This document shows, one piece after another, positions 23,201-51,452 of a DNA stretch of 64,000 nucleotides (position 1 is its first letter; the number at the start of each line of letters is the position of its first letter). Origin of the DNA: Sthenelais limicola (lineage: Eukaryota; Annelida; Polychaeta; Phyllodocida; Sigalionidae); NCBI GenBank assembly GCA_942159475.1, contig OW804096.1, forward strand, positions 135,035,506 through 135,099,505. Reading direction: 5' to 3'. Below the pieces are notes generated by a model. It was not told where the DNA came from. It ran no database searches and worked only from the letters and a program-made list of their open reading frames with translations. The position numbers and the translations under genes were made by a program.

Positions 23201-26200
23201 AGAATGTATTCACCAATATCATACCTTTTATAAATGATCCATAAAAACCAATGCATGATGGGAAAGATGGAGGCTTGTGTTATGGAAATATGTAAAACAC
23301 ATGGATATTGACATTAGATAGATAAAGATAACTGACAATGTACAGTGCAAATAACTTATTGTAATATATGGGTCAGATTTTCAGAAAATGTACAATTGGC
23401 AAGTTTACACATTTAGGAAATTCTCCTAAATTAGGCTGAAAAATGTAGAATCCCAGGTATATCTGTGTATATTTGGTATCGCACTGATTTAAAGTATCAG
23501 TTCTGTTATGTTAGACTGCATTTTGAAGTTCATTTTTGTCTTAAAAGTGGGCTATTTGAGAGTATTGAAGAAGACGAATTGTACATTTTCTGAAAATCTG
23601 ACCCCTATGTGTGTTGTGTGATGATTGCTGCATAAACTTACTCAATAAAACAAGTACAACATGTGGTGGTGCATTAATGAGACGGGTCTATTGCAGGCGC
23701 AGGGGAGTCGGGCAAGAGCACGTTAGTGAAACAGATGAAGATCATCCACTGCCAGGGCTTCACCCAGACCGAACTGGACAGTTTCAGGGTACGTTACTAT
23801 TTATAGCATTCCCTCACTATAAATAACCTATCATGCTATTATTAGAGTTGGAGTTTAGAATTCTTTTTATTCTGGAAATACACCTCTTTTAGAAATTCAA
23901 AGAAACAGATTTTATTCTGTTGAAACAATCGAGTTCTATAAATGTAAAACTTGGCTTTCAAAATGATAAAATTCAACCTCCTGCGTTTCAATTCTTGAGA
24001 AGGGATCCCCAGTATTAAATGTGCTGAGTTAATATCTTCTATTATTTCGCAATCCAACCATTTATTTCTGCTTGCCCATTTCATACATTGTTATCATTAT
24101 TAATGATAATAAGCTAATAATAATCTGGACAACTCTCTATTTTCCGAAACGCCTAATTCCTAAGTGAGAAGATGAATGTACTGTCAACATATACTTGGGT
24201 TAGATTTTCAGAAAATGTACAATTGGCAGCTGTACACATTTAGTAAATTCTGCTAAATTCTGCTAAATTCTGCTAAATTCAAGTATATTCGGCATTGCAT
24301 AGATTCTAGCAACCTGTTTGGTTAGGTTGAACTGCATTCTGAACTTTATTTTCGTTTGAAATTTGGGTTATGTGAGACGATTGGTGAAGTTGAATTGTAC
24401 ATTTTCTGAAAATCTGACCCACTTGTACTTCACTGTTTTTCTGTTTGTGCAAAACAGTTTTCCAAAGAGTGGGGAAGAGTTAATGATGTTATCTCTGGCG
24501 ATGGGTAGTGGAAAAGTATGTTTATAATCAATTATCTTCAGGAAACGATACTGATTTAAAGACAACATCAGAGGTAATACTCAGCACCAAAATAAGTCAG
24601 AATTTTTCTTGAAGACACATGGAACATATGTTTTGTGTAATATAGTTCATGATAGTTGCCAACCCAGCAAAATGCGTCACAAGTCGCAAAATATAATTTT
24701 TGAGATATCACCATTATTTGGAAAGAGGAGATCAAGCCGATTCTAATGATAGTAAACACTAGGACACCTAATAAGTATTTCTGTATTTTAAGTTTGATAT
24801 CTTATTTTTGAAAAAAAAAGTTTGCAATGTTTCTGGATGGGTAAATTACCAGTAAAGTAACTAAATATACTCCATACAAAGGCCTTCAAAACGCAAGGAT
24901 ATATTTAATACAATGTCCCGAAATTTGATACATGGATTTATATGACTATAAGTGATAAACCGTCTAAAGATCAGAACATTTCAATAAAGAAATCTTGTAA
25001 AAAAAAAACACTTTAAAAAATATCAGTTTTGCTACTTGTGACTCATTTCCCTGTAACACATCACATATGTTTTGTGTAATATAGTTGCCAACCGGGCGGC
25101 AAGGATAACCTTGTTTGACAATGGTGAGAAATATGTGTAACACGTCTGTTGTACATTACACTGACAGACTTATTTATTTGATGAATTGCTTCCCTTAACT
25201 GGCGCAGTAATATGACAAGCGCACTACATTGTTCTCTTCTATTACTTGCATATGTTGCTCCGCTGTGGAAAAATAGTTCCCACATAATGGGATGTCACGT
25301 GTGATTAGTATTACTACGCGGTGACAATGGACAGGAGATTTTCATTTTATTCCTGCCAAGCATCAATTTCCTATGCTCTACTACCCTGTTATCTACTCTC
25401 TCTTATATAGCTTTCCTTACTTATTATACACACATTGCTCTGAAAACAATGTATCTAGAGTGATTTACGCATAGTGTGTATTTTACTAGTAATTTATGTT
25501 GGGTTGTCATGGCAACCAACCTGTTTCTTTTACTAAGATCACCGGTAAAATTCAAATTCATGACTCAATTTTTTTCTATTTTCATGATTGAAAGCATGTA
25601 TAATAAATCTGGTAACTAACTCATTGGTTTCACCAGTCACTTAGAATATTGCACTCGTTGCTACACAACTCGTGCAATATTCACGCTCCTTCAACCAACT
25701 TGTTAGTTAGCCTGTATATATTTTTCTACCCAGTTTGTTGATACTTTTATTGATTGGTAATTAATAGCATTCGTGGTTATAATACAATCCCCACCTTCTC
25801 TTAGCTTTCCTTACCTGCTACTAAACTTTTTGTAGCCTTAAAGTTGAATTTCAGTCTGAAACTTGGTAAAATATGCATTGGTTGCCATGACAACTCACAA
25901 GTGCAATACACACTGTGCACAACTCACTCTATAACCCTAAGACTTGTACCTTGCAGACAACCGTGATGGAGAACCTGCTGTCCTCCATGAATTATGTGCT
26001 CAATGGTATGGGGCTGTATATGGGTCAGATTTTCAGAAAATGTACAATTCGTCTTCTTCAATACTCTCAAATAGCCCACTTTTAAGACAAAAATGAACTT
26101 CAAAATGCAGTCTAACATAACAGAACTGATACTTTAAATCAGTGCGATACCAAATATACTCAGATATACCCGGGATTCTACATTTTTCAGCCTAATTTAG

Positions 26201-29200
26201 GAGAATTTCCTAAATGTGTAGAGTTGCCAATTGTACATTTTCTGAAAATCTGACCCATATACATTATAACCACTTGTACCTTACAGACCACAGTAATGGA
26301 GAATCTACTGTCCTCCATGAAGTATGTGCTCAATGGTATGGGGCTGTATATACATTATAACCACTTGTACCTTGCAGACCACAGTAATGGAGAATCTGCT
26401 GTCTTCCATGAAGTATGTGCTCAATGGCATGGGGCTGTATATATATACATTATAACCACTTGTACCTTACAGACCACAGTAATGGAGAATCTGCTGTCCT
26501 CCATGAAGTATGTGCTCAATGGCATGGGGCTGTATATACATTATAACCACTTGTACCTTGCAGACCACAGTAATGGAGAACCTGCTGTCTTCCATGAAGT
26601 ATGTGCTCAATGGCATGGGGCTGTATATACATTATAACCACTTGTACCTTACAGACCACAGTAATGGAGAACCTGCTGTCCTCCATGAAGTATGTGCTCA
26701 ATGGCATGGGGCTGTATATATATACATTATAACCACTTGTACCTTGCAGACCACAGTAATGGAGAACCTGCTGTCCTCCATGAAGTATGTGCTCAATGGC
26801 ATGGGGCTGTATATATATACATTATAACCACTTGTACCTTACAGATCACAGTAATGGAGAATCTACTGTCCTCCATGAAGTATGTGCTCAATGGTATGGG
26901 GCTGTATATACATTATAACCACTTGTACCTTGCAGACGACCGTGATGGAGAACCTGCTGTCCTCCATGAAGTATGTGCTCAATGGTATGGGGCTGTATAT
27001 ACATTATAACCACTTGTACCTTGCAGACCACAGTGATGGAGAATCTGCTGTCCTCCATGAAGTATGTGCTCAATGGTATGGGGCTGTATATACATTATAA
27101 CCACTTGTACCTTACAGACCACAGTAATGGAGAATCTACTGTCCTCCATGAAGTATGTGCTCAATGGTATGGGGCTGTATATATATACATTATAACCACT
27201 TGTACCTTACAGACCACAGTAATGGAGAACCTGCTGTCCTCCATGAAGTATGTGCTCAATGGCATGGGGCTGTATATACATTATAACCACTTGTACCTTA
27301 CAGACCACAGTAATGGAGAACCTGCTGTCCTCCATGAAGTATGTGCTCAATGGTATGGGGCTGTATATATATACATTATAACCACTTGTACCTTGCAGAC
27401 CACAGTGATGGAGAACCTGCTGTCCTCCATGAAGTATGTGCTCAATGGCATGGGGCTGTATATATATTATAACCACTTGTACCTTACAGACGACAGTAAT
27501 GGAGAACCTGCTGTCCTCCATGAAGTATGTGCTCAATGGTATGGGGCTGTATATACATTATAACCACTTGTACCTTACAGACCACAGTAATGGAGAATCT
27601 CCTGTCCTCCATGAAGTATGTGCTCAATGGCATGGGGCTGTATATACATTATAACCACTTGTACCTTACAGACGACCGTGATGGAGAATCTGCTGTCCTC
27701 CATGAAGTATGTGCTCAATGGCATGGGGCTGCTGCGCATCAACCTGGACAACCCCAAGAACAGGGTAAAGCACAATTAATACTTTATTATAATATATTTA
27801 GTATTTCCTCATTTTGTTTGTGTATGTTGGAGAATGTGAATGAGTGCACTTTGTCATCAATGAATTTGTGCACATGCAGCAGTTAAATGATATATGGGTC
27901 AGATTTTCAGAAAATGTACAATTGGCAGCTGTACACATTTAGTAAATTCTGCTAAATTAGATGAATACCGGGTATGTCTGAGTATATTTGGTATCGCATT
28001 GATTCTATCAATCTGTTTGGTTAGGTTAAACTGCATTTTGAACTTTATTTTCGTCTGCAATCTGGGTTATTTGAGAGGATTGGTGAAGGTGAATTGTACA
28101 TTTTCTGAAAATCTGACCCGTATCTGTAACTACAGATATGTGATGTGCTTCAGGTAAATAAGTCATATTAAAGTCACAAAAATTGGATTTTGAGGTATCA
28201 TCATATCTGAAAAGAGGAGAACAAGTCGATTCTAATGAGTGTAAACATTAAGGGTATCTAATAACTGTTAAATTTCTATCTTTTCGGTTTGATATTTATA
28301 TCATTTTAGAAAAAAGTTTCTGGGTGGGTAATTGCCAGTAAAGTAACTAAATGTACCAAATATACTCCATACGAAGGCCTTCAAAACGCAAAAAAAATTA
28401 TTTAATACAAGGTTCTGAAATTTGGCACATAGATTTATATGACTACAAGTGTTAAACTCTCCAAACATCAGAACATTCAAGTGAAGGGATCTTGTGAAAG
28501 AGAACACTTACACACAAAATATCAAGTTTGCAAATTGTGACTCATTTTCCTAAAACACATATTGAATTGAAAAATACTTTATTTGTCTGGGGTTATACAA
28601 ATGATCCAACAAATAGGTTTGTTTGTTTAAGATTTTTATTTTTAAGATTTTTATTTTTAAGATTTTTATTTTTAAGATTTTTATTTTTAAGATTTTTATT
28701 TTTAAGATTTTTATTTAGGTGACCAGGCTTCTGGATGATATCCAGGTTATCCAGTTACAGATATCTCTAATACAGTTATCAATATCTCTAATACAGTTAT
28801 CAATATCTCTGATACAATTATCAATATCTCTGATACAGTTATCAATATCTCTGATACAGTTATCAATATCTCTGATACAATTATCAATATCTCTGATACA
28901 GTTATCAATATCTCTGATACAGATATCAATATCTCTGATACAGTTATCAATATCTCTGATACAGTTATCAATATCTCTGATACAATAATCAATATCTCTG
29001 ATACAATTATCAATATCTCTGATACAATTATCAATATCTCTGATACAATTATCAACATCTCTATTACAATTATCAATATCTCTAATACAGTTATCGCCAA
29101 ATATTTACCAATACATGTATCTGCAAATAACTGCAGATATCTCTCAAGAGATTACAGATATTTCTAAATACTTGCAGATATCTCTAAATATTTAATTTAT

Positions 29201-32200
29201 TACCCTATGCCATGCTATTGACAATGTGATTGTCACAAAATTGTGCCCATATGTATACATCTGTTTGCCAACTTGGTCTTATACCTTAATTTCCTCATTT
29301 CTCAATAGATAGGGGTAACATTTGGTACTTTTAATGTCGTGCCTTAACTCTACTTTTGATATGCTACTTACACCTATTATAATTATGCTTACGCTAACCA
29401 AGGTTCATTACACATATGGGTCAGATTTTCAGAAAATGCACAATTTACATTCACCAATCCTCTCAAATAACCTAAATTTCAGACAAAAATAAAGTTCAAA
29501 ATACAGTTCAACCTAACCAAACAGATTGCTAGAATCAATGCAATGCCAAATATACTTGAATTTACCTAGTATTGACCAAATTGCAGCCTTATTTAGCAGA
29601 ATTTACTAAATGTGTAGAGCTGCCAATTGTACATTTTCTGAAAATCTGACCCATGCTTATCTAAAGTATCTTCCCCCCACAGCTGCATGCACAGACAGTG
29701 TTGTCATGCCACCGTTGCCATGACGAGTACCAGGTCATGCTGCCCTTCATCTGTAACGCTTTACGGTCGCTATGGAATGATGCCGGTGTACGGCTGGCAG
29801 TCAGCAGAGGCTATGAGTACGAGCTCAACGACTCAGCCATGTAGTGAGTACAAGAGATTACTATTATTATTATCGTTATTATTATTAATAGTTTATTTTA
29901 TTGCCTATAAAACCTTTTTTTTTTAAAAAAAATTGTATTGCCTAGTTTCACTGCAAGATATCGCTGGTTATGTCATAAGCTGGTTATGTGGGCCACAACT
30001 ATTAATTAATGATTTTGTGCTAGGAATCTGATCATGAACCCCAATATCATCAATATTTGAGTAAAAATGGTTTAGATTTAAGGGTAAATTTTTAAAACTT
30101 GATTTGAAAATTTAAATGGAATAGTTCTAGGTTTGCCTAACATTACAAAGAGTCTTTGTCTCATCTATTCTGATTGGTTGATGTGTGATCTTACATGATA
30201 TCTGATTGGTCCTATTGACACTAAGTCTGGTACTTTCTAGTTACTTTGACAACATGGAGAGGATCTGTGGGGAGAAGTACCAGCCGTCCCAGGCGGACGT
30301 GCTACGTGCACGTATACGTACCACAAGCATCATAGAGACATGCTTCAAGATTAACGGCCTTATATTCAGGTATTGTTGGACTTGTACAATAAGTGTAGTA
30401 TAGAGGACCAGAAAAGGACCGCACAAGGATAGAAGAGCGTTTTGCAGGGTTACTTTAGTAAGATTAAGTTTGTTATCACCCCTCCCCACTCCCCCTCCCC
30501 CACCCCCCGTTAGTGTCCCCGTACACACCACCGCATTGGCGTGGTGTGTACGGGGAGCTGATGCCTATGGCTGTGTGTAGTGTGGGGTGGTTGAAGCTAT
30601 GTAAACATGGCAGGACTGAGTGACAATAGGTAGAGGAACAATAGCATTTCTGTACCATGAACACAGTAGTTTTTCCAGCCCAAAGGGTAGCTAACTAAGT
30701 CAAGTTTCCCTCAGACGAATTACAGGTCGCCACTTACAGGGAAAACGTTAAAAAGAAGGCCATAAGTATGGGTCGTGTCTATATGGGGAGTGGATGCTGA
30801 TGGGTTGGGTGACGTCACAAATTGTTGATGTAGGCTTATCCGCCCACAGAGGGCGGGTCGGTCACATCTCGTCAAGACGTTGTACTCTTAGTGAATAGGA
30901 AATGTCCAAGATGAAGCCGCGGACATTTCCTATATACTAAGAGTACAATGCTGAGCTCCTTAATTCAAAATTATTTCCAAGAGATGCCTGAGCAGACTCT
31001 TTCATTAAAGAGTCCGCTCAGACTCAAAGAATGCACCTGGAATTCAGGACAGTATTCTTCAAGCATGGGAGTCTGCCCAAGCCAATGATATGGGGAATAA
31101 GGGCTCCACAGCAAGTGGAGGATAATGCGGAGAAGAATGTGTCACGGTAACACGTCCCATGGGGTAGTCATTCTGTTTTACCATCCAATCATATAGGACC
31201 TTGGAAATGACATTTCTGCTTCGCCAAAGGAAAACTTGGATTGAATAAATTGTCCACATATGCATCCCTAGTTTTCCTTATTTGATCTTATACATGCCCT
31301 CTTTTCCGCATAGATGGGGTTAATTATGCCACACTTCATTCTTTTAAAGAGCTACCTATTTATAATAAACTTTTATTTACATTTATAAATTATTTTTTAT
31401 TAATAACCCTGAGTGTCTCAATGACAAAATAACCAAGTATTACTCTAAATTCCTTTTAGAATGTTTGATGTTGGAGGTCAGAGATCTGAGAGGCGGAAGT
31501 GGATACAGTGCTTTGATGACGTCAGAGCGTTGTTGTACGTCACAGCTCTGAGTGGTTATGACATGACATTGTTTGAGGACCCGGATGTTGTAAGTTTTTT
31601 TATTTTTCCTTATTGGGGCAATTTATAAGTATTGGGGAAATTCATGATTTTAATTTGCAAAATAATTACATAGTGAGACGGGTATTCAAATTAATTAAAT
31701 ACATGAACAATTGTTAGGGCTTGCATATCACATAATCAAATACATGAATAATTGTTAGGGCCTATATAGAATAGAATAGAATATCTTTTATTTGTCTTAT
31801 GGCAGTTACAAAAATAAACGACAAATGGGTCGACATGCTTATGTGTCACTCGGGGTAACACATCTCTTCCAGCCGCTACCCTGGAATATACTTCTCTTGC
31901 TGAACAATGTAATATTTAGTAATAAATGAGAGAGGTAACTGTGGGTAACTGTGTATACTAACTCAAGATGACTGTACGTTATGTTGCAGAACCGGCTGGA
32001 TGAAAGCCTTAAGCTGTTTGCACAAGTCATCAACACACCCTTCTTCAGGAGCACATCCACGGTGAGTAGCTCCCCCTCTCCAATACCCCCACCCGCTCCC
32101 ACCCCTCTTTTCCTTCTCCCTCTTCTTTCCCTCCCCCCCCCCCCCCCCCCTCTCCTATTTCCCCATCCTGTCCCCCTGTCCTATTTCCCCATCCTCTCCC

Positions 32201-35092
32201 TCCCGTCCCCCTCTCCTATTTCCCCATCCTTTCCCACCCCTCTTCTTCAACCTGCCACTCCTTTGCATAGTGGCAAATGATGTAGTGTCTCACAGGGCTT
32301 TCCCAGGCTATAAAAAGAGTGTGGAGATTCCAATTTAAAAAAGGCTTCAAAATCACATTTTCGTCCCAGATACCTTCACAAACCGCATATAATGTCCTGC
32401 AGACAGGGTCAACGGACCTGTAGAGACCAACAAAACTGGTGGGGAGATCACAGATTCCCAGAACATGTGTGGCAAAAACCCTTCTTGAGCTTTATATATT
32501 AGATTTCATATGTACAGATGTATACTGGTACATGTACTTATATACTTATAGTGTGTTTCATATGTACAGATGTATACTGGTACATGTACCTATATACTTA
32601 TAGTGTGTTTCATATGTACAGATGTATACTGGTACATGTACTTATATACTTATAGTGTGTTTCATATGTACAGATGTATACTGGTACATGTACTTATATT
32701 GGGTCCCATATGTACAGATGTCTACTGGTACATGTACTTATATACTTATAGTGTGTTTCATATGTACAGATGTATACTGGTACATGTACTTATATACTTA
32801 TAGTGTGTTTCATATGTACAGATGTATACTGGTACATGTACTTATATTGGGTCCCATATGTACAGATGTCTACTGGTACATGTACTTATATACTTATAGT
32901 GTGTTTCATATGTACAGATGTCTACTGGTACATGTACTTATATACTTATAGTGTGTTTCATATGTACAGATGTATACTGGTACATGTACCTATATACTTA
33001 TAGTGTGTTTCATATGTACAGATGTATACTGGTACATGTACTTATATACTTGTAGTGTGTTTCATATGTACAGATGTATACTGGTACATGTACTTATAGT
33101 GTGTTTCATATGTACAGATGTATACTGGTGCATGTACTTATATACTTATAGTGTGTTTCATATGTACAGATGTATACTGGTACATGTACTTATATTGGGT
33201 CCCATATGTACAGATGTCTACTGGTACATGTACTTATATACTTATAGTATGTTTCATATGTACAGATGTATGCCTGCATGTCTATTGATACTAATATTGT
33301 GTTTTATATGCACAGATCCTCTTCCTCAACAAGCTGGACTTGTTCAGAGAGAAGGTGATGGGGTCAGGGCGCCACCTACGCTACTACTTCCCCAAGTACA
33401 CAGGTAGGTACCCACAGGGCGCAGCCTGTATATGGGTCAGAATTTCAGAAAATGTACAATTGGCAGTTGTACACATTTAGTAAATCCTGCTAAATCAGGC
33501 TGCAAGTTGGTCAATACTAGGTAAATTCGAGTATATTCGGCATTGCATTGATTCTAGCAATCTGTTTGGTTAGGTTGAACTGTATTTTGAACTTTATTTG
33601 GGTCTGAAATTCGGGTTATTTGAGTTGATTGGCGAAATTGAATTGTACATTTTCTGAAAACCTGACCCATATATGGCCATCAGGTCATCAACTCAATATT
33701 TATCTGCAAATATTTAGAGATATCTCAAAATATGTTGGTACATATTTGGAGATATTTATAAAGGGATTAGCAATGTCTACAAATATTTGCAGATATCTCA
33801 AACAGGATTAGAGATAGCTGTTACATAATATTATGTAAAGCGTTGGTCCCCCTATCGGACAGTGGACAAAGCAGCAGGGCACAGATGGTTATGCTAATTA
33901 GTGTGATGCGGTGGCCGTTGTCATGAATTAATAGTTAGGTTTGATCAGTCAAACAATCAAGGCACATTATATGCTCCTTAATTGTTATTGGTTTGATTGA
34001 TTAGCGTGTAAGGGTTAATTAGTCATTGATTAACAAATAAGTCTTAAGGATAATATAGTCTGTCTGAAAAGTAGTTGACACGTGATTCCTTAGTCCCTTT
34101 AAGGGGAGGGAAAAGTGGGAGATTTCTGATTTCTTTTTATGACAAGGACCTGTCCACTCTTTGCCCAGTGAGTTGCTTATTGCAATCAACCATGGGGAAA
34201 CAGGGCCTGTATAACCAGCTCTTCCTTCCTTTTAACCAAAACAACAGCTGCAGCACATGGAACAGAGACAGCACAATACAGTACAGCTGGACATTTGGCC
34301 ATGGTTGGTCGCAAACGACCATGGTTGGTCGCAAACGGCAATGGTCGGTCGCAAACGGTGATTCTGGGACAATTAGTTTGAAGTCAAAATTCTCCCACTT
34401 TTCCCTCCCCTTAAAGAGACTAAGGAATCACGTGTCAACTACTTTTTGGACAGACTATAGAGACGTATCACTGGTGGAGAACTGCAGACCGGAAAATTGA
34501 AATTTAGATAACTTTTGACAATACAGATATCATGTAATTGTATTCATCGATATCCATAATACATTAACAGATATCGATGATAGAATATATAAGAGATATC
34601 TCTAAATATTGAATTTATGACCCTATGGCTTAATTGCCCCCCGTCGGCAACTTATTTGGATGGGGTATATATTATATACATTTTTATTATAGATATCTCC
34701 CCAATATCTGTAGGCTATAACTACATAAAATTTGTGTTTATTTAAATTATTCATCCATCTTACGTATAGCCTATTTTCACACTTGTGATATAATTTAGGC
34801 CTATACTAACCAAAGCCTCCTTTTTCGTTTTACTCCCAACATTATAGTATTATGTATGGTATTAATCTCTAATCTCCACTGTTTCATCCATTCTCTGCCA
34901 GGTCCTGACTATGACGTGGAGTCAGCGGCAGTATTTATCCAGATGCTCTTCAACCGTAGCGTGTATTCCTCTGCCAAGGTCATCTACCCACACTTCACCA
35001 CTGCCACCGACACCTCCAACATCAAGGTCGTCTTCAGCGTCGTCATGCACACCATCATCAGAGAAAACCTGCAGGCAGCACAACTATTGTGA
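379..35092 (+). CDS. gnav1: G-protein alpha subunit, Gv-like class (9 exons, 359 aa)
   Basis: Heterotrimeric G-protein alpha subunit: a GTP-binding switch at the plasma membrane that couples seven-pass receptors to effectors. Coding exons: 379-502, 23697-23788, 27672-27764, 29683-29843, 30241-30369, 31460-31589, 31990-32061, 33316-33403, 34902-35092; phases are consistent and total 1,080 nt. Seen: MGACLT start (Gly2 for myristoylation, Cys4 for palmitoylation), P-loop GAGESGKST at 42-50, switch [10 protein letters not shown] from 181, DVGGQRSER at 203-211 with catalytic Gln207, NKLD at 272-275, TTAT at 329-332 (usual TCAT), C-terminus ENLQAAQLL. The C-terminus is unlike Gi (no pertussis-toxin Cys), Gq, Gs or G12. 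The core [12 protein letters not shown] and [12 protein letters not shown] match my memory of the Gv class; that class assignment is recall, not a search. Start is ATG 379 with good context (G at -3 and +4); an upstream in-frame GTG was not used. Odd: Ser186 in switch I, and a minisatellite made of exon 3 pieces. Confidence 0.88.
526..852. mobile_element. Nested inverted-repeat element, copy 1
   Basis: Starts TTACACCCC with the inverse GGGGTGTAA near 698-706. A hairpin follows whose arms begin GGAACAAAG/CTAGGTTCC and share GAAGTCTGTACACTTGTT with its inverse near 811-829. Nearly identical to 47630-47956. Lies 23 bp inside intron 1. Confidence 0.7.
934..1729. mobile_element. TATAGTTTGGCGCT family, copy 1 (enlarged)
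   Basis: Ends ATAGTTTGGC and inverse AAACTAT. Shares with the copy at 3919 the G/A-rich block, the AAGTGTCRTAAACG block, the GGAGGAACT block and the GAACAGGAACTAATGG block. About 460 bp of extra sequence lies inside (about 1157-1625), including an ATTGATGTTATCATCAAT hairpin. Confidence 0.6.
2070..3894 (+). repeat. 45-bp minisatellite, about 40 copies
   Basis: Unit starts TGGGTTAGAACCCTGTACCT and ends CTACCCTAGCACAGGTG. The period is a multiple of three and lacks stops in one frame, so it reads as a long [15 protein letters not shown] repeat, but it sits in intron 1 with no sign of being coding. A few units carry TAG stops. Confidence 0.95.
3919..4252. mobile_element. TATAGTTTGGCGCT family, copy 2
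   Basis: 334 bp, the simple form of the family. Contains a 16-base G run at about 3972. It starts directly after the 45-bp minisatellite. Confidence 0.65.
4372..4606 (+). mobile_element. 235-bp GGGTCAGATTTTC MITE, copy a
   Basis: Defines the family: non-coding, usually exactly 235 bp, terminal inverted repeats of about 28 bp beginning GGGTCAGATTTTCAGAAAA and running through TGTACAATT, flanked by 4-bp target duplications, most often ATAT. Two subfamilies differ inside: A has CAGAACTGATACTT, B has CAAACAGATTGCTAGAATC. Copy a: subfamily A, ATAT on both sides. Confidence 0.85.
4684..4780. repeat. G/T-rich short tandem repeat
   Basis: Imperfect repeats of GTAGGAGGGTGTAGGGGGTG with GCAGTGGCAGTGG between them. 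Confidence 0.7.
4911..5030. repeat. CT-rich tract
   Basis: Pyrimidine-rich low complexity, mostly CTCTCTATCT and CTCCCTCTC. Confidence 0.8.
5157..5785. repeat. 53-bp minisatellite (9 copies) with an inverted unit
   Basis: Tandem units of ACGCATCCTGTAATAGGGAG... through 5649, then a 100-bp spacer, then one unit in reverse (TGTTGGTGCGTTGTGG then TTGCTAAATCTCCCTATT, about 5745-5785). The layout suggests an inverted-repeat element whose left arm was amplified. Confidence 0.9.
5994..6745. repeat. 750-bp polypyrimidine tract
   Basis: Almost pure C/T on the plus strand, first CTCTCTCC type, then TTTCCCTCTCCCC type. Long open frames here are artefacts of composition. Such mirror-rich tracts can form triplex DNA. 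Confidence 0.95.
6921..7155 (-). mobile_element. 235-bp MITE, copy b
   Basis: Subfamily B, reverse. Flanked by TTGT on both sides, one of the diagnostic non-ATAT target duplications. Confidence 0.85.
7302..7716. mobile_element. 415-bp GTGATGTGTTTCAGG element, copy 1
   Basis: Terminal inverted repeats of about 40 bp: ATGTGATGTGTTTCAGG then AAAATGAGTCATAAGTCGC, inverse at the right end. Interior AT-rich, with ATTCTAATGATAGTAAAC and an oligo-T stretch; no coding capacity. Defines a family of five. Confidence 0.8.
7717..7961 (-). mobile_element. 235-bp MITE, copy c
   Basis: Subfamily A, reverse, 245 bp, ATAT both sides. Inserted exactly at the end of a second element (7302-7716). Confidence 0.85.
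8185..9010 (+). repeat. 23-bp minisatellite, interrupted by a MITE
   Basis: Units of TATGGGTCCCACACTGTGCCCTA and close variants, about 25 copies, split by MITE copy d at 8232-8454. Reads open in several frames; not coding. Confidence 0.93.
8232..8454 (+). mobile_element. 235-bp MITE, copy d
   Basis: Subfamily B, 223 bp, ATAT both sides. Inserted inside the 23-bp minisatellite, between TATATGGG units. Confidence 0.85.
9125..9192. promoter_or_regulatory. CRE cluster in G-alpha intron 1
   Basis: Two full TGACGTCA (9167-9174 and 9179-9186) plus TCACGTCA at 9157-9164. Enhancer function is inferred only from motif density. Confidence 0.35.
9238..9640. repeat. 400-bp polypyrimidine tract
   Basis: CT-rich on the plus strand, ending in CTCCCTCCCC repeats. 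Confidence 0.93.
9820..9893. repeat. C-rich tract
   Basis: CCCCCCGCCCCCCT-type low complexity. Confidence 0.9.
10007..10241 (+). mobile_element. 235-bp MITE, copy e
   Basis: Subfamily A, AATA on both sides. Confidence 0.88.
10356..10590 (-). mobile_element. 235-bp MITE, copy f
   Basis: Subfamily A, reverse, ATGT on both sides. 114 bp from copy e. Confidence 0.88.
10694..10928 (+). mobile_element. 235-bp MITE, copy g
   Basis: Subfamily B, ATAT both sides. Third member within 920 bp. Confidence 0.87.
10929..12336. other. Intron 1 stretch with no gene or clear repeat
   Basis: AT-rich single-copy-looking DNA apart from the ACGTC cluster at 11714-11794. No convincing exon or RNA was seen. Confidence 0.5.
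11714..11794. promoter_or_regulatory. Six ACGTC motifs within 81 bp, intron 1
   Basis: ACGTCA or GACGTC at 11714, 11730, 11745, 11761, 11773 and 11788, in DNA otherwise poor in CpG. Could be a CREB/ATF-type regulatory cluster or a degenerate repeat of GACGTC. Confidence 0.4.
12337..12676. mobile_element. 340-bp element with palindromic ends
   Basis: Each end carries GGAAACACAC. The left end is a perfect palindrome, GGAAACACAC-GTTAAT-GTGTGTTTCC. CGATTTA follows on the left and TAAATCG precedes on the right as inverted repeats. Interior has T-runs and a GTGAGG G-run. Single copy in the window. Confidence 0.55.
13183..13540 (+). repeat. 60-bp minisatellite, 6 copies
   Basis: Unit GATCATAAAGTGCCTTTCTG...TTTCCTGGGTAA, nearly identical copies. 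The unit is a piece of the dispersed repeat seen singly at 49082, 52625 and 58484. Confidence 0.95.
13854..14088 (+). mobile_element. 235-bp MITE, copy h
   Basis: Subfamily A with diverged ends (GGGTCAAATTTT), ATAT both sides. Confidence 0.85.
14094..14630 (-). mobile_element. 306-bp hairpin element, copy 1, split by MITE i
   Basis: Without MITE i it is about 302 bp: GCGCATTCCATATGAGAGG, GTGCAATAAGTGGAGTGCT, then an inverted repeat with arms GAATGGAACTCGC/GCTCGTTCCATTC. Homologous in reverse to 56181-56496. Confidence 0.8.
14259..14493 (-). mobile_element. 235-bp MITE, copy i (nested)
   Basis: Subfamily A, reverse, ATAT both sides. Sits inside a hairpin element (14094-14630) whose uninterrupted relative is at 56181-56496, giving an empty-site comparison. 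Confidence 0.88.
14640..15671. other. Intron 1 stretch, nothing recognised
   Basis: Unique-looking AT-rich DNA. Minus-strand open frames of up to 100 codons have no recognisable motif. Confidence 0.5.
15672..16034. mobile_element. GTGATGTGTTTCAGG element, copy 2 (5' truncated)
   Basis: Interior and right TIR (TTTTGCGACTTATGACTCA, then CCATCACATAT) are present; the left TIR is missing. Confidence 0.75.
16573..16809 (-). mobile_element. 235-bp MITE, copy j (old)
   Basis: 237 bp, the most diverged copy (ends GGGCTCAGATTTTTAG and TGATGATCTGACCC). Flanks TATC and ATAT no longer match. Confidence 0.75.
16810..18680. other. Intron 1 stretch with CGATTCG motifs
   Basis: No gene seen. 17690-17860 holds repeated and inverted GCGATTCG/CGAATCGC and GAGTCG-type motifs, probably a degenerate inverted-repeat element; related GGCGATTCTGAG occurs at about 17506. 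Confidence 0.4.
18681..19402. mobile_element. 720-bp element with CCTAGGT subterminal repeats
   Basis: Ends GTGTAACAG and CACCTGTAAC. Inside both ends are many short ACCTAGGTCTAA / TACCCCCGGGGGTA blocks in both directions (about ten on the right), flanking an AT-rich core. No coding capacity. Confidence 0.55.
19696..20746. mobile_element. 1.05-kb element with ACCCAGGGAGAA ends
   Basis: Terminal inverted repeat ACCCAGGGAGAA, with AACGTT/ACGTTC/CGTTTG motifs repeated densely near both ends (19711-19870 and 20555-20735). The centre holds a GTC triplet tract and open frames of up to 143 codons with no recognised domain. Confidence 0.6.
20179..20222 (+). repeat. GTC/GCC trinucleotide repeat
   Basis: CGTCGTCGC-type repeat of about 44 bp. 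Confidence 0.9.
21069..21176 (+). repeat. G-rich tract, likely G-quadruplex
   Basis: Runs of GGGGG spaced by T (GGTGGGGGTGGGGGTGGGGG) over about 105 bp on the sense strand of intron 1, ending in a 12-base G run. Confidence 0.85.
21371..21632. repeat. CT-rich tract
   Basis: Pyrimidine-rich low complexity on the plus strand, ending in CCCCTCCCCCC. Confidence 0.88.
21640..23013. other. Intron 1 stretch, nothing recognised
   Basis: AT-rich DNA with short open frames only; no exon or RNA gene seen. Confidence 0.5.
23014..23320 (-). mobile_element. AGGGGAGTTGCAT family, copy A (truncated)
   Basis: Reverse orientation: starts AATAGGGGATTTGCATGTCCC, ACTGCGCATGTCTG, and runs to TGTAAAACACATGGATATTGA; the far end is lost. 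The family has ends AATAGGGGAGTTGCAT, a CATTGCGCATGT-like subterminal block and a total of about 350 bp. Confidence 0.65.
23370..23604 (-). mobile_element. 235-bp MITE, copy k
   Basis: Subfamily A, reverse. Flanks ATAT and CTAT. Ends 92 bp before G-alpha exon 2. Confidence 0.85.
23697..23788 (+). CDS. gnav1: G-alpha exon 2 (P-loop)
   Basis: Acceptor TATTGCAG, donor CAGG|GTACGT. Encodes the end of Gly42 through Arg72, including [17 protein letters not shown], the phosphate-binding loop and helix 1. The intron before it is about 23.2 kb and almost all repeats. Confidence 0.93.
24197..24420 (-). mobile_element. 235-bp MITE, copy l
   Basis: Subfamily B, reverse, 224 bp, ACTT on both sides. Has three tandem TTCTGCTAAA pieces near 24248. 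Confidence 0.85.
24662..25069. mobile_element. GTGATGTGTTTCAGG element, copy 3
   Basis: Left TIR diverged (AATGCGTCACAAGTCGC), right TIR GCTACTTGTGACTCA to CATCACATAT. G-alpha intron 2. Confidence 0.75.
26022..26256 (+). mobile_element. 235-bp MITE, copy m (in exon 3 array)
   Basis: Subfamily A, ATAT both sides, inserted in the TATAT spacer between the first and second exon 3 units. Confidence 0.88.
27672..27764 (+). CDS. gnav1: G-alpha exon 3 (functional copy)
   Basis: Phase 0-0 exon, residues 73-103, start of the helical domain ([20 protein letters not shown] then [11 protein letters not shown]). Acceptor CTTACAG, donor CAGG|GTAAAG. It is the last of 17 tandem copies and the only one carrying the second half of the exon and its donor, so it is taken as the functional copy. 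Confidence 0.88.
27896..28119 (-). mobile_element. 235-bp MITE, copy n (mosaic)
   Basis: 224 bp, reverse. Mixes subfamily A (ATACCGGGTATGTCTGAG) and B (CAATCTGTTTGGTTAGG) markers. Flanks ATAT and GTAT. Confidence 0.82.
28136..28560. mobile_element. GTGATGTGTTTCAGG element, copy 4
   Basis: Starts ATATGTGATGTGCTTCAGG, 16 bp after MITE copy n; right end CTAAAACACAT. G-alpha intron 3. Confidence 0.75.
28629..28717 (+). repeat. 15-bp tandem repeat
   Basis: Six copies of TTTAAGATTTTTATT. Confidence 0.95.
28757..29095 (+). repeat. 21-bp minisatellite, about 16 copies
   Basis: Unit ATCTCTGATACAGTTATCAAT with single-base variants; in G-alpha intron 3. Confidence 0.95.
29418..29652 (+). mobile_element. 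235-bp MITE, copy o
   Basis: Subfamily B, flanks ATAT and ATGC. Ends 30 bp before exon 4, so it replaced the sequence where the branch point would be expected. Confidence 0.85.
29683..29843 (+). CDS. gnav1: G-alpha exon 4 (helical domain)
   Basis: Residues 104-156 plus two bases of Tyr157. Contains [16 protein letters not shown] and [11 protein letters not shown], matching the helical-domain signatures of all G-alphas (SLWND, YQLxDS). Donor TA|GTGAGT. A MITE ends 30 bp upstream of the acceptor. Confidence 0.93.
30241..30369 (+). CDS. gnav1: G-alpha exon 5 (switch I)
   Basis: Residues 157-200. Carries the linker and switch I: Arg181 (the cholera-toxin-type arginine), Thr184 (magnesium ligand), and Ser186 where most G-alphas have glycine. 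Acceptor TTTCTAG, donor TCAG|GTATTG. Confidence 0.93.
30515..30553. repeat. Hairpin in G-alpha intron 5
   Basis: CCCCGTACACACCAC and its exact inverse GTGGTGTGTACGGGG around a 9-base loop, next to a C-rich run. Confidence 0.8.
30850..31026. repeat. Pair of hairpins in G-alpha intron 5
   Basis: First: GTACTCTTAGTGAATAGG / CCTATATACTAAGAGTAC arms with AAATGTCC/GGACATTT inside. Second, close by: TGAGCAGACTCTTT-CATT-AAAGAGTCCGCTCA. Probably a foldback element. Confidence 0.7.
31460..31589 (+). CDS. gnav1: G-alpha exon 6 (switch II)
   Basis: Residues 201-243: [20 protein letters not shown], the canonical switch II with catalytic Gln207, then [15 protein letters not shown]. Acceptor CCTTTTAG, donor GTT|GTAAGT. 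Confidence 0.95.
31767..31890 (-). mobile_element. Non-LTR retroelement 3' tail (reverse)
   Basis: On the minus strand it reads TAGCGGCTGGAAGAG..., GCCATAAGACAAATAAAAG, then ATTCT repeats. Same family as the tails at 44640, 47598 and 58430. Confidence 0.55.
31990..32061 (+). CDS. gnav1: G-alpha exon 7
   Basis: 24 codons, phase 0-0, residues 244-267 ([10 protein letters not shown], then FFRSTST), the alpha-3 helix region. Acceptor GTTGCAG, donor CACG|GTGAGT, followed directly by a CT-rich tract. Confidence 0.92.
32072..32255. repeat. CT-rich tract after exon 7
   Basis: Pyrimidine-rich on the sense strand, with a run of 17-18 C and TCCTATTTCCCCATCC repeats. Confidence 0.88.
32515..33315 (+). 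repeat. 52-bp minisatellite ending at exon 8 acceptor
   Basis: About 14-15 units of TGTGTTTCATATGTACAGAT...CTTATATACTTATAG; some carry TTGGGTCCCATATGTACAG instead. The last, diverged unit (TGTGTTTTATATGCACAG) is the exon 8 splice acceptor, so every upstream unit has an acceptor-like TACAG. Confidence 0.92.
33316..33403 (+). CDS. gnav1: G-alpha exon 8 (NKxD)
   Basis: Residues 268-296: [14 protein letters not shown] carries the guanine-specificity motif NKLD, then [13 protein letters not shown]. Acceptor ATATGCACAG is itself a diverged unit of the 52-bp minisatellite that fills the intron upstream. Donor CAG|GTAGGT. Confidence 0.93.
33434..33668 (-). mobile_element. 235-bp MITE, copy p
   Basis: Subfamily B, reverse, ATAT both sides. 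Starts 31 bp after exon 8. Confidence 0.86.
34054..34459. mobile_element. 406-bp element with 69-bp inverted repeats
   Basis: Arms start TATAGTCTGTC and run through AGTAGTTGACACGTGATTCC to AGTGGGAGA with about three mismatches. TA at each edge fits the TA duplication of Tc1/mariner elements. The middle holds three copies of TGGTTGGTCGCAAACG-type repeats. Confidence 0.8.
34902..35092 (+). CDS. gnav1: G-alpha exon 9 (C-terminus)
   Basis: Residues 297-359 and TGA. Contains [11 protein letters not shown] (the TCAT guanine loop with Cys changed to Thr) and the receptor-contacting alpha-5 helix ending ENLQAAQLL. The TGA stop is the first three bases of a CRE, TGACGTCA, at 35090-35097. Confidence 0.93.
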
Positions 35093-40690: not shown

Positions 40691-43328
40691 TTAGCTGCTG
40701 GACTTGACCACCCATGCACTCATACCATACTTATTGCCGGGCGTCATGTCCAGTGCAGGGAAGTCAGTGTCCAGGTGGTGTTCCTTGCTGTGTGGGCTCA
40801 CGTCCCGCAGCGCCAGCACCTGTCCACACGTGGGGCAGGTAGTGAAGGTGGTGTCTATGTTGCCCCACGCCTTACGCTCGGCCTTGTCCCGCTTGGTGCT
40901 GGTGCCGCGCTGTGGCTGGCGGGCGGTGCGGTGAGCCTGCAGCAACTCCTGCTGCTTGTTGATGTCTGGCAGGAGCACAATGAGTTCAGTGAAGACGTCC
41001 AGGAAGCCTTCACTGCCCAGCAACTGCTTGCACTCAGTGTAATAGTCACTGCCACTCATCAGTGCTTGGCGGAACTTGCCCGACGCCTTCTTGAAGGTCT
41101 GGAACTTGTCGTTGTCGTCCAGGAGGTGGCGCTGAACACCAGCGATGAGGTTGTGGTTACGGTCCATGAAGTGCGGAGGCTCACAGTACTCCAGCACCTC
41201 CTCCTCCATTGGGGCTGGGGGCAGGGGGGCGGGGCAGAAACCTGGGGGAGGGGCGGGTGCAGGGAAGTCATTGGGGAGGCCAGAGAAGCCTGGCGGGGGT
41301 TTAGCAGGAACAGGGGCAGGGGCGGGGGCGGGGACAGGAGGAGGGACATAGGCCAGACCTGGGGGTGGGGCAGTGGCAGTAGACACACCTAACTCAGGGA
41401 AGTCATCTTCCTCTTCCTCCTCCTCCACCTCCACCTTCTCTACACTGGGTCCCTTCAGGTTGGCACATATGCCTGCTAGTGTCATGTTAGCACCAGGTGG
41501 TGGAGCCACTGGAGCGGGGACGGGGGCTGACACGCGCGGCACTGACTTGATGGCAGTAACCAGCTTGTCTGTCTCAGGCTTGAACAGGCTGGGAAAGTCA
41601 GTGTTGTTGTTGAGTTGTATTTCTCCCCAGGGAGCCTCCTTGTCCCTTGTCTTCTTATACACAAGTCCTGGCGGCTCCTTCACCTCCTTCTTGGGCTGCG
41701 GGGGTGGTACAAAGTCAGGGATGTAGCCCCACGTGGGCTCGGGCTCAGCCTCCTCCTTCTCTGCCTTCAGTTTGTTGCTCTCGTTCTTGTCCTTCTTATT
41801 TTTCTTTTTGGTTTTAATCTTAAGCATACTATCTGTGTGGTCCATGGCTTCCTGTGGTTTGGGTTTGTTGTCCCCCGAGCCCCAGTTGGTGATGGTGGCA
41901 AGGCTGGGGGCTGGGGCTCCTCCTAATGAAGGGAAATCGTCCTCAAACTTCTCCACTTTCTTGGCTCCTTTCTTCTTCTTCCTGGACTCAGTCTCAGTGA
42001 AGGAGTCGGTGGGTGTAGGTGCAGGGGCCGGTGCCTTCTCTATTTTATGGCTTAAAGCAGGCGAATTCCTATCCTCAGTTTTAGCGGGGTAATTGTTTCT
42101 AGCTTGGGTTTTACTTTTGGTCTCTGGTTTTGCTTTTTCCTGAGATGAAGATTTTACAGGTTTTTTCCTGTCCTCTCTGGCAGGTAGAGGTTGTGGTTGC
42201 TCTGGGGGCGGTGTGTCGGCCGGCGGGGCATCACGCAGGAGGAAAGCCTCGGCCTCCCGCTCCTTCTTCTGCTGACTCAGCAACTTCTTCATGGCTACAG
42301 ACTCTGGTTGTTGAGTCTTGCCACCACTAGGGGCCGCCACAGTAGGGGTGGGGGCAGGCATGGTGCGGCCCCCTAGTGAGGGAAATTCTTCATCAAACAT
42401 GACCTCTACAGATTTGGGTTTGGGCTGGGCTGGGCCCCGGGGGGCTTTAGGGCGGGTGCGTTTGGGGGAGGCTGGGGCAGGGGCTGGTGCCACCCTCCGT
42501 CCTCCACCCAATGTGGGGAAATCTCCATCATCATGGTACACTGAACCAGACTTGCTGGACTTAGGAGAAGAATTGAGTTCTTGTCTAGAAATAGTCCTTA
42601 TGTTAGGTTGAGCTGGAGGGGCAATACTGACACCCCCACCCAAAGTGGGATAGTCCTCTTCCTCATCTATAAAGTCTTGGTAAATTTGCCTGGAACGGGA
42701 GGGTCCATTGGTACTAGAGGGGTGTGATGAGCGTGAATGAGGTTGATTGGAAGGTTGAGCTTTGCCAGACAACAAGCCACTGCCTATACTACTGAGAGAG
42801 GGGAAGTCACTGCGGGAGTTCAATATGGGTTGAACGGGGGCAGGGGCAGGCCGGGGCTTGCTGGCCGGCCGCACCTGCTGCTTGGCCTGGCTGTGCTTGG
42901 CCTGGCTGTGCTTGACTTGGCTCTGCTGCTTGCTGCCCCAGCCCGGGGCAGCGCTGCCTACTGAAGCCCTGCTGGAGTTGCCCCCGAGGGCAGGGAAGTC
43001 CTTCTGATCAGCCTTGAATGCCCAGGCACTCTTGGCACTATATGCAGCAGGCTGGTCACCTGGACCCAGACTGGGGAACTGTTCATCACCCATGCTGCCC
43101 TCGGCCACACTGAAGTTCTGCGAGCGTGCCACGTGCATGGCCATGTTATCCCTGTTCACCTCCTTAGCACTGGCTGCTGCGGGTGCAGGTGCCTCCTCCA
43201 CATCACACACCCGCCTCACCACACTACCGTCCAGGGTCGGGAAGTCAGAGGACTGCGGCACTGGCATGACCGACATCTTAGTGTCAGATTCTGAAGTCAC
43301 CAAAGCTTTCTGTAACTCAGCGGCCTCT
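40691..43328 (-). CDS. ZNF598: ZNF598 exon 6 (tail, last finger)
   Basis: 878 codons in one exon, residues 349-1226. Low-complexity Pro/Ala/Lys/Glu sequence with about a dozen D/E-F/Y-P-x-L motifs, GYF-type PPPG motifs, a conserved C-terminal helical block and a final CPTC...H finger followed by DFPALD. Confidence 0.95.
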
Positions 43329-46300
43329 CTGTAACAAGGGAGAAAGGATAGCATCAATACAAGTTACTGTCTACATGGATCTGTTATACAGCAGGAACAG
43401 TACAACAATGGAAGTACAAGGGACAACCGGAATTTGTAGACAAACTTATCAAAAAAATAAAAAATTTTTTTATCAAGATTTAAATTATTTCATTAATTTG
43501 GAATAGTTTAAAGGTGACAGGCCAACAGCCTTACCGTTCTTGTTACTTTAGACCATGATATGATAGTGAGCATGTGTACATGTTGTACATAAGTTTAAAA
43601 GATTCCTGACAGTTTATATGGTACAGTAGAGTACCAATCAACACAAGAAATGAACGAGTGTTATGAACGAGGTTTCGATTATATAATTATAATTATCAAC
43701 CACCTACAGTAATACAAACTCTCTGAATCACCAAAAATGACAGATCCTGGATGGAAATACCTCAACAATACATAATCAACTAATATTCAACAATAATAAA
43801 CCTTGAAATCCATGATACCCCAGTCGTTGCAGTAAAATAATGAAGCGTAATGGCTTCTGGCCAGTGCCAAATCTCCATAGAGAAAATTTTCGACCAAATT
43901 TCAATTTTAAAATCGCTCATATCTCGTTAAAATAAAAATATTAAATAATATCTCAGAATAATCTATTTAAATACAACCTTTGTTCAACCTAAGGAAGCCA
44001 TTTTGAAAGTTATATGACCCCCGTTTGGCTGTAAAACCATAACAAAATTTATCGAAAATCGTCAAAATTCCAAATTTTCGTCTGTCATAGGATTTGCATT
44101 GGTATCATTATGATGGGTCTAAAATCGGTAAATATTGGAATAATTTAAAATTCTTTTCATCTATACGACGTAACTACATCCCTAGATGAAATAAACAGTG
44201 AAAGAATTTTGAAAATCGTTGAGGTTGAAGCGTTATTCGGCGCGGCGAATTCCAGATTTGACAAATCTCGCCAAGGTGGCCATCTTGAAAATCGCCAACG
44301 ATGTCAGCCATATCTTCTATGTTAAAACAAAATGATGCGGAATTTGGATAAAAATTACAATTTTGAATCGGTAGAAACCTAGAGTGATTTGAATCGGTAG
44401 AAACTCAAACATAACCTAGAGTGATATTACTGCCTTCGAAAAATAAATGTATATTTCCAGCGAAAACGACAGTAAGTTTCATTGAAGGATTTCAAGATAG
44501 TGAAGTGATTCGTCTTCAATCTTCCTGATTATGTTAATGTATCTTAATGACAGGTCACGTGACCCTTCTACATTTTAATTTTAAATGCCTTATTCCTCAC
44601 CACGGAAGAACTATCTAGGCAATTGTCTATTTAGAAAGATAAGATAAGATAATTCTTTATTTGCCATAAGGTGTTTTTGACAAAGAGGTTACGTTCTTCT
44701 CAAGAGGAGGTCTTCCCGAACATGCCTTTCTTCATTACCTTTTACTTGGTTACATTTGACTAAGCTACGTTCATAATTAAACACTACAACTATTAAAACT
44801 GTTAGAGTAAAAGTTGTTAATTAATCAATGAGAATCGGTTAATCACTCTATTTTCATGTGTCCATCTCATGGAGAAGTATAGTTACAAGAGTTGCATGCA
44901 CTAGTGCTACTAATAAGGGGTACAATCGTGTGACATCCACGATTATTGAACATGAAGAAAAAAGTTTGAAAAAGACGCAGAGGAATACAACTCTTACGTT
45001 GTCTCCTGGGGCTGTCATTTATAATCAATGGTACGATTAATATGTTTAATAAAGGCGAACCTGTCTTCAATTTTATGTGACTCCGTTTCTAGGTTGTTCC
45101 ATCCAAACTGACATTTGTATATAACTGAATTTTGTATTTTTGTTGTTCTGGGGGTAATCGTCTTTAAGTTTCTGCGAAAGTTGAATTACCGCATTGTAAT
45201 AAGACCAAATACAATGAAATAATCTATACCAAACCTATACTGCAAGAGCTCAGTTTCCACACTAACATAAAGACTCACCTGTCAGACATGGGTTTCTCTG
45301 CTTCAAACCCACCCATACCACGCCCTCGTCCACGACCACGCCCACCTCGGCCACGCCCCCCTCCACCACCACGCCCCTGTTTAGGCTCCTCCCCTCCTGC
45401 ATCCTCGTACTGGGCGGGTCGGCCACGTGGCGGTCGTCCTGTGGAAACAAAGTTTGGTGTCAGCTCACATCAAGTAATGAACAAAAGGCAGAGTATAAGA
45501 ACACAACTTTACCTGATTAATAGGGGAGTTGCATAGCCGCCGTTTTGAATTCTAATTCGCATTGAATTGTGGGACTAATGGTACAGTCTAAAATCTATAG
45601 AAAACACGTCATCTTCAGCATGGACTATTTATTAGTGCTCTTATGTCAATATCCATGTGTCATTCATGTTTCCATAACACAAGCCTCCACATTTCCCAAT
45701 TTATGCGTATGGTTTTCATAGATCATTCATAAAAGCGATGATATTGGTGAAAACATTCTTGCAATTTTTTATAAAAATGTTGCCAAATATTTGTATGTCA
45801 GATCTCATCAAAATTCATCCCATGATGCACTGTACCAGACATGCGCAGTGGCACATGCAAGTCCCCTATTAGCTATCAGTAGAAGTACAAGTTAAGCATG
45901 ATGTGATGGATAATGAAAGAATAATAAATAGTGAAAGGAAATTAATGACCCCCGTTATAGATAGAATAGAACTATCTTTTAAGTTTTATTGATCAAGGTT
46001 TACAATTTTTGACGAAATGACTAATGTCTTACACTTGTATAAGCATGGAAAAACTACTGCATGTAAAGACTCATACTCTCTATCCCTGTCCCTATCCCTG
46101 CACTCACCTCTGTCCCTGTCCCTGTCCCTGTCAGGCCTGGAGCCAGGCCGGGGTGCGTAGTTGATATCGATGTCGATCGTGCGCACCTGGCGGGCTACTG
46201 ACTTCTTGACTCGGCCGAGATGCTCAGCAGACATGTGACCTTTGAGGTCAATCTCTGACCTGAAGGCGTTGGTGAACTTGGCGTTGAGACAGTCGGCCTC

Positions 46301-51085: not shown

Positions 51086-51452
51086 GATTGTCTTCTCTAG
51101 AACTTAGTATACTCCTTATGCTGCTTGTTTGCAAATATAGCCACGTTGGCCGCCGTTTGGCCTTTTTATAAGATCTTGGCCAGCGACACACCTGCGAGTT
51201 GCAACGATCTCCTTCCTATGTTTCTCGCAGTTGTGTAAGTGCGTGACACGTCATCGGTTTCTGTGCACCGGATGGTGTAATACTTTACGGCATTTTAAAA
51301 TGGTCTTTTAATTAAAACATTATATACCCTTAGCATCATATTGTTGATACATGATTTAATCTAGGAGTTAAATTTGAAAACATCTTTATATAACATAAAC
51401 CAGCGTCTGCAGCATGACGTCATGCGTGATGTCATCACATCACAAAACCAAG
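51086..51452. promoter_or_regulatory. Shared ZNF598/SYNGR divergent promoter region
   Basis: The 367 bp between the two head-to-head start codons must contain both 5' UTRs and both core promoters. A full CRE TGACGTCA lies at 51415-51422, 31 bp before the synaptogyrin ATG. No TATA box in a usual position was recognised. Transcription start sites cannot be placed. Confidence 0.65.

Follow-up and report, generated by a model that had tools for sequence, protein, structure and literature searches.

Why should copies of an exon start that appear to be bypassed by splicing differ from one another almost only at silent sites? This question is raised by a G-alpha gene of the polychaete Sthenelais limicola, in which the boundary between intron 2 and exon 3 is repeated in tandem. 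The DNA analysed, referred to here as the window, was a stretch of 64,000 nucleotides (nt) from the 1.13 Gb genome (positions 135,035,506-135,099,505, forward strand). The silent-only differences shared among the repeat units, taken with similar arrays nearby, suggest that the array and the working exon exchange sequence.

The repeated boundary of exon 3

The G-alpha gene in the window is intact and lies on the + strand. It has nine exons with an open frame of 359 codons plus a stop, and its product matches Pfam G-alpha PF00503 with E=6e-112. Exon 2 (23697-23788, +) encodes the P-loop GAGESGKST and ends in phase 0. Exon 3 (27672-27764, +) has 31 codons and was assigned from its frame, unbroken to exon 2 on one side and to exon 4 on the other, and from alignment to homologs. 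A preliminary description of this DNA had reported 17 tandem copies of the exon start, and 17 units were indeed located at 25943-27764, 16 of them partial and the last being the real exon 3. Each unit joins about 30 bp from the end of intron 2, including the acceptor, to the opening 20 codons of exon 3. The acceptor CTTGTACCTT[A/G]CAG is present in 17/17 units (starts 25943, 26273, 26364 ... 27658), as is the 20-codon segment. The remaining 11 codons and the donor (27765) are found in unit 17 only, again as described. The 91-bp period given earlier applies to some of the spacings, but others are 95 bp, the difference lying in a TA repeat, and 330 bp separate units 1 and 2.

Unit 1 (25943-26016, +) comprises an acceptor and 20 codons, with ACA at codon 1 and the change K12N, and its upstream flank is ordinary intron. 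Units 2-16 (26273-27640, +) are 15 idle copies, each with the acceptor, the 20 codons and the motif TATAAC, which we take to be branch-point-like. The acceptor of unit 17 (27658-27671, +) was taken as the working one for exon 3, this being the only unit that continues into the rest of the exon and its donor. A whole-genome search using the last unit plus exon returned 16 matches, all inside this array. As a minisatellite that spans an intron-exon boundary, the array belongs to the type known as 'mirages'.

Exon 2 is probably joined to unit 17 only, because unit 17 alone leads into the true exon end, and this would make decoys of the 16 upstream acceptors. In the frame of exon 2, read-through from units 1-15 hits a stop, and unit 16 reaches unit 17 out of frame. 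A protein containing several units, which the preliminary description had thought unlikely, was ruled out on these grounds. The donor-like site at the end of a unit scores -3.9, compared with 1.2-6.2 for the eight donors of the gene; these and all donor scores below use weights that were not derived from this sequence. Micro-exon or recursive splicing through a donor-like GTAATG just past the acceptor was also considered and set aside as a weak match (-1.4). At codon 17, the silent difference GGC/GGT creates or removes a donor-like ATG|GTATGG, which 8/17 units have (25957-27731), while the working unit has GGC. This is a single case and permits no inference.

Silent and altering changes among the units

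Across the 20 codons of the 17 units, 9 of the 11 distinct changes are silent and the other 2 alter an amino acid. All 7 changes that occur in at least two units are silent, and the 4 singletons comprise 2 silent and 2 altering changes. The silent variation falls, as the preliminary description had listed it, in two Thr, Val, Asn, Leu, Ser and Gly codons, identified as T1, T2, V3, N6, L7, S9 and G17. The altering changes also proved to be just two, each restricted to a single unit: unit 8 carries T1I and unit 1 carries K12N. Among 120 aligned homologs, K12 is conserved in 95% and T1 in 3%. A count against a neutral model had been proposed, and it gives a clear excess of silent changes: the probability of at least 9/11 being silent under random single-base change is 1e-4 to 4e-4 with transition weights of 1, 2 or 4. 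CpG mutation bias was considered as a cause, by eye only, and rejected.

The intron part of units 2-17 has 2 substitutions in 29 bp, plus the TA-length differences. This near-invariance carried no weight in the preliminary description.

Exchange between units, also put forward earlier, is supported by the four-gamete test, which 6/10 pairs of two-state shared sites fail. For sites 6/18 and 6/51, unit 17 itself supplies the extra combination, which means either that the working exon participates in exchange or that these sites underwent two changes. The interior units are alike, unit 1 is set apart, and unit 17 is a mosaic with the interior. Barring repeated mutation, the units have exchanged sequence among themselves and with unit 17.

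Nearby exon-edge arrays

The area surveyed was 284 kb, comprising the window and 220 kb of flanks. A tandem-repeat census of the flanks generated 44 rows with units of at least 30 bp and at least 5 copies, and the ends of about 18 arrays were read. Eight exon-edge arrays were found besides the one at exon 3. The resulting number, at least nine, is a lower bound because the ends of only about 18 arrays were read.

A donor-side array with a 95-bp unit lies at a cactin exon (L019:6740-8551; Pfam Cactin_mid, E=1e-8), the real exon being the first unit. Its shared variants are 7 silent and 0 altering (P=7e-5 for shared variants), with one altering singleton. This independent repetition of the bias bears on whether the pattern at exon 3 is due to chance or to misassembly from collapsed or chimeric reads. 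Distinct changes number only 11, long arrays are hard to assemble, and one neighbouring array (L027/28, donor side) runs into a stretch of N that may be a gap. Chance or assembly is nevertheless very unlikely given the probabilities of about 1e-4 to 4e-4 and the cactin result, and read errors would show no preference for third codon positions.

A second donor-side array, with units of 41/47 bp, lies at a DEG/ENaC-like exon (L022:4612-10000 plus L023:1-596, minus strand; Pfam ASC, E=1e-10 for the exon). It has about 137 copies, of which 128 are regular units. With 6 silent and 13 altering changes it is close to neutral overall. None of the altering changes occurs in more than 2 units, however, and both variants present in at least 3 units are silent. 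When other anchors were used, 132 units gave 11 altering changes. This array is a good place for studying rare against common variants.

An acceptor-side array lies at an exon at L026:~7230, and the exon at L027:~9395 has an acceptor-side array to its left (L027:8179-9383) and a donor-side array to its right (L027:9562-L028:1419). We take these two exons to belong to a DEAH-helicase gene, although three pieces gave no match in Pfam. Donor-side arrays at L017, L028 (4 exon bases only) and L029 were recognised solely by an open frame with splice letters and had no Pfam match.

Seven arrays with at least 15 counted exon bases were pooled, variants being called common if present in at least 10% of units. 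The ratio of silent to altering changes was 16:1 for common and 9:14 for rarer variants (P=6.5e-4). When the exon 3 array was left out, the ratios were 9:1 and 7:12 (P=0.008). The silent bias described for exon 3 therefore recurs in other boundary arrays, and it depends on frequency. Common variants per site were 0.33 for silent, 0.039 for intron and 0.006 for altering positions; common variants are thus about eight times as frequent at silent sites as in the adjoining intron (P=1.8e-7, with sites treated as independent).

Left out of the counts were the array at L027:8179-9383, with 11 exon bases, and that at L028:5929-6344, with 4. Rows below 80% of the consensus were dropped, namely 2/15 coding rows of the L026 acceptor array, 1/6 intron rows at L029, and 2/29 coding and 4/29 intron rows of the L027/28 donor array. 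Also dropped were unit 1 from the intron set of exon 3 and the last 2/20 anchor matches at cactin. Because splice-site letters served as anchors for the units, changes inside the anchors are undercounted. Eight arrays without a known exon part were tried as controls, of which 2 gave no usable unit. The 6 usable controls have 2-3 common variants each in the fullest frame, and 3/6 show 2 silent and 0 altering changes in one or more of the six frames, so that the control is weak.

Free mutation of idle copies is evident from the rare altering changes and argues against every unit being read. If each unit were constrained, either by use of several acceptors or by translation, altering changes would be purged everywhere. 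When selection is made to act on all units, the model does give the observed pattern (P=0.15, 825 accepted runs). The acceptor and the branch-point-like part are also conserved in every unit, and donor-like sites within the units are as strong as that of exon 3 itself on the same weights. Against this stand the stops from units 1-15 and the frame shift from unit 16, the very poor donor at the unit's own end (-3.9), and the 13 altering changes kept in the DEG/ENaC-like array. We regard constraint on every unit as improbable.

The source of the shared silent variants

Silent-only sharing suggests that the variants that spread have been working sequence. The preliminary description had proposed that units mutate and mix freely in the array and are selected only on reaching the last position. 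Such a filter is in line with silent-only sharing and with the rare variants of the 128-unit DEG/ENaC-like array, which look unselected. In a wide grid of population simulations, the observed pattern was obtained with P>=0.1 in 8/28 cells. All 8 of these had fast copying, with at least 2 copies made per chromosome and generation, and in 7/8 the donors came from the whole population. The other simulations were unfavourable. In single-lineage simulations 0/563 and 0/629 accepted runs matched the observed pattern, with means of 4.9 and 4.8 shared altering changes. Drawing half of the copies from the last unit gave P=0.0065 (308 runs), and in an initial population grid six cells had enough runs, of which five yielded P=0 and the sixth P=0.04. 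Accepted runs within one simulation are mutually dependent. A passive filter also predicts an intron flank as variable as the silent sites, and the values observed were 0.039 and 0.33, the difference quoted above with sites taken as independent. We consider this explanation unlikely. The earlier idea that array and exon evolve together is supported in part, with respect to exchange, in which unit 17 probably takes part, and to the silent bias, which is seen elsewhere; selection through the last copy alone is too weak in a simple model.

Another potential source is a diverged second gene, from which conversion tracts limited to the exon would bring in silent differences, the intron of the paralog being unrelated. 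Import of this kind would account for silent variation without intron variation, and a paralog may have been lost or left unassembled. The unit was found in this array alone across the assembly, however, and the other G-alpha matches (14/23) have at most 60% protein identity. A protein search of the genome identified no close second gene of this G-alpha type. Cactin, which has the same pattern, matches at one place only (3/3). Import from a paralog thus has very little probability in our estimation.

The explanation we favour, with modest confidence, is that the units are overwritten from working-exon alleles of the same exon. Rewriting would be repeated, through unequal exchange and gene conversion, and would mostly involve different chromosomes. 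Variants found in many units would then be standing silent variation of the working exon that selection had already cleared, and variants in single units would be recent mutations in idle copies, altering ones included. The near-uniform intron part would fit a young array. A young array overwritten by working alleles is predicted to have an intron flank that is less variable than its silent sites.

Several points weigh against overwriting from working alleles. For import to account for 7 shared silent changes where only about 15 sites are silent, a silent diversity of ~0.1 or more is needed, by a simple calculation in which the silence of imports is built in as an assumption, and diversity of this order is extreme for an animal. 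Uniformity of the intron flank could be due in part to the splice signals carried there. An internal GAA|GTATGT in units 2-17, the working one included, scores 1.8, equal to the exon 3 donor (1.8), and the internal ATG|GTATGG scores 2.6 in the 8 units that have it; these donor-like sites make the exon-definition step uncertain. One altering variant is common (N>T in 9/27 units of the L027/28 donor array), 14/16 common silent variants come from two arrays, and the 10% cut was chosen after the first counts. The data are DNA only, from the assembled haplotype of one individual.

A broader and more doubtful extension is that amplified exon edges form a genome-wide class of minisatellites serving as two-way reservoirs of silent variation, so that in many exons the first or last codons would evolve by copying instead of point mutation. 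Arrays of this class would keep silent alleles from the working exon in store, and conversion could return them to it.

Array variants provide an internal test within one chromosome, in which rare variants represent neutral change and common variants selected change. This makes measurable the exchange of idle copies with the working exon, the manner in which splicing ignores decoys, and whether arrays seed new introns.

Related repeats and other features of the region

Minisatellite-like duplications of intron-exon boundaries were named mirages in the lancelet globin genes BflGb6 and BflGb9 (PMC3087553). They include a splice signal, lie on the acceptor or donor side, retain the authentic boundary, and evolve in concert within a cluster. 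The same text cites Adh3 (Canestro 2002, the first description) and other genes, and states that RT-PCR and Adh3 data suggest normal splicing despite mirages. It also proposes such arrays as seeds of new introns. The exon 3 array has the structural features of a mirage: its 17 units with acceptor and 20 codons span an intron-exon boundary, the real boundary is at the array edge in an otherwise intact gene of nine exons and 359 codons, and the repeats carry splice signals, with [A/G]CAG at the exon start in 17/17. The BflGb6 haplotypes have 6 and 3 units of 150-160 bp that are 81-100% identical (PMC3087553). In contrast, the array described here has 17 units of 91/95 bp, and all its shared coding differences are silent. 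No silent-site analysis of lancelet mirages was seen in the portions of PMC3087553 examined.

Lancelet PGBD5 has 60- and 108-bp tandem repeats over its 5' and 3' splice sites according to PMC3902484, which also cites a troponin C mirage. Those repeats are imperfect and the 108-bp unit is a triplication, so copies are few, unlike the 17 units at exon 3. The one relevant case that the search yielded beyond lancelets concerns human genes within segmental duplications, where minisatellites at exon-intron boundaries change gene structure, with 27 intron modifications (PMC2812944). They differ from the arrays described here in that units of about 30 bp average 4 repeats, occur in recent gene copies and are often accompanied by alternative transcripts; the word 'synonymous' is absent from the text of PMC2812944. 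Boundary duplications are thus on record from a few genes of lancelets and from recent human gene copies, and here at least nine lie within 284 kb. Neither silent-only sharing nor such a local density of arrays was found in the portions of the mirage literature examined. Silent-only sharing was not found in print among the open-licence papers searched, subscription literature being mostly outside the search.

Hypervariable minisatellites, human MS32 among them, turn over by interallelic conversion and form mosaic arrays. Turnover of this type would be the expected mode here. Arrays of the MS32 type are non-coding, whereas the exon 3 array ends in a working exon.

The gap between units 1 and 2 is filled by an interspersed repeat of ~245 bp (26018-26262, +, borders approximate), which has 34-bp terminal inverted repeats and resembles a miniature inverted-repeat transposable element (MITE). 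A copy 2.6 kb upstream, at about 23365-23608 (minus), is 98% identical to the insert. Further copies are 92-97% identical (among 40 candidates scored), and the genome holds many relatives. Another copy lies at 27882-28123.

A second array in the G-alpha gene (32509-33306, +) consists of 16 acceptor-like copies (TATGTACAG followed by AT) directly before the exon 8 acceptor, spaced 52 or 44 bp apart with a last spacing of 50 bp. The real exon 8 acceptor region aligns to its unit with a score of 41, compared with a maximum of 25 in 500 shuffles. This array shares the intron end with the real acceptor but no exon sequence past AT. Of the 8 variants shared within a 40-copy array (2069-3895), no more than 3 are silent in any frame. 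No long array was found at other G-alpha exons, at 7 loci among the 14 matches outside this gene; one such exon, at L043, has a 2.1-copy 62-bp repeat overlapping the exon end and a GTAAGT. In the flanks, about 77 copies of a 62-bp unit ending in TACAG followed by CTGGGTGAGGAGAAG occupy L026:8102-9999 and L027:1-2895. No complete exon was seen at either end of this array, which is possibly the relic of a boundary array.

The remaining exons of the G-alpha gene, all on the + strand, are exon 1 (379-502, from the likely coding start to a GTGAGT donor, its translation ending in KILLLG), exons 4 (29683-29843), 5 (30241-30369), 6 (31460-31589) and 7 (31990-32061), for which donors and acceptors were identified, exon 8 (33316-33403), and exon 9 (34902-35092, through the stop). 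Homologs were compared using the best 120 of 7709 G-alpha matches. Among these the closest has 74% identity, and the named ones include onychophoran (71%), Branchiostoma lanceolatum (70%) and Limulus (70%) proteins. The top named homologs are invertebrate proteins labelled 'G(o) alpha-like', and fish 'alpha v1' proteins rank lower, at 59-64%, in percent identities taken alone. Two neighbouring genes lie downstream, by their look presumably a ZNF598-type ubiquitin ligase (40694-51103, minus) and a synaptogyrin-type membrane protein (about 55444-58962, plus).

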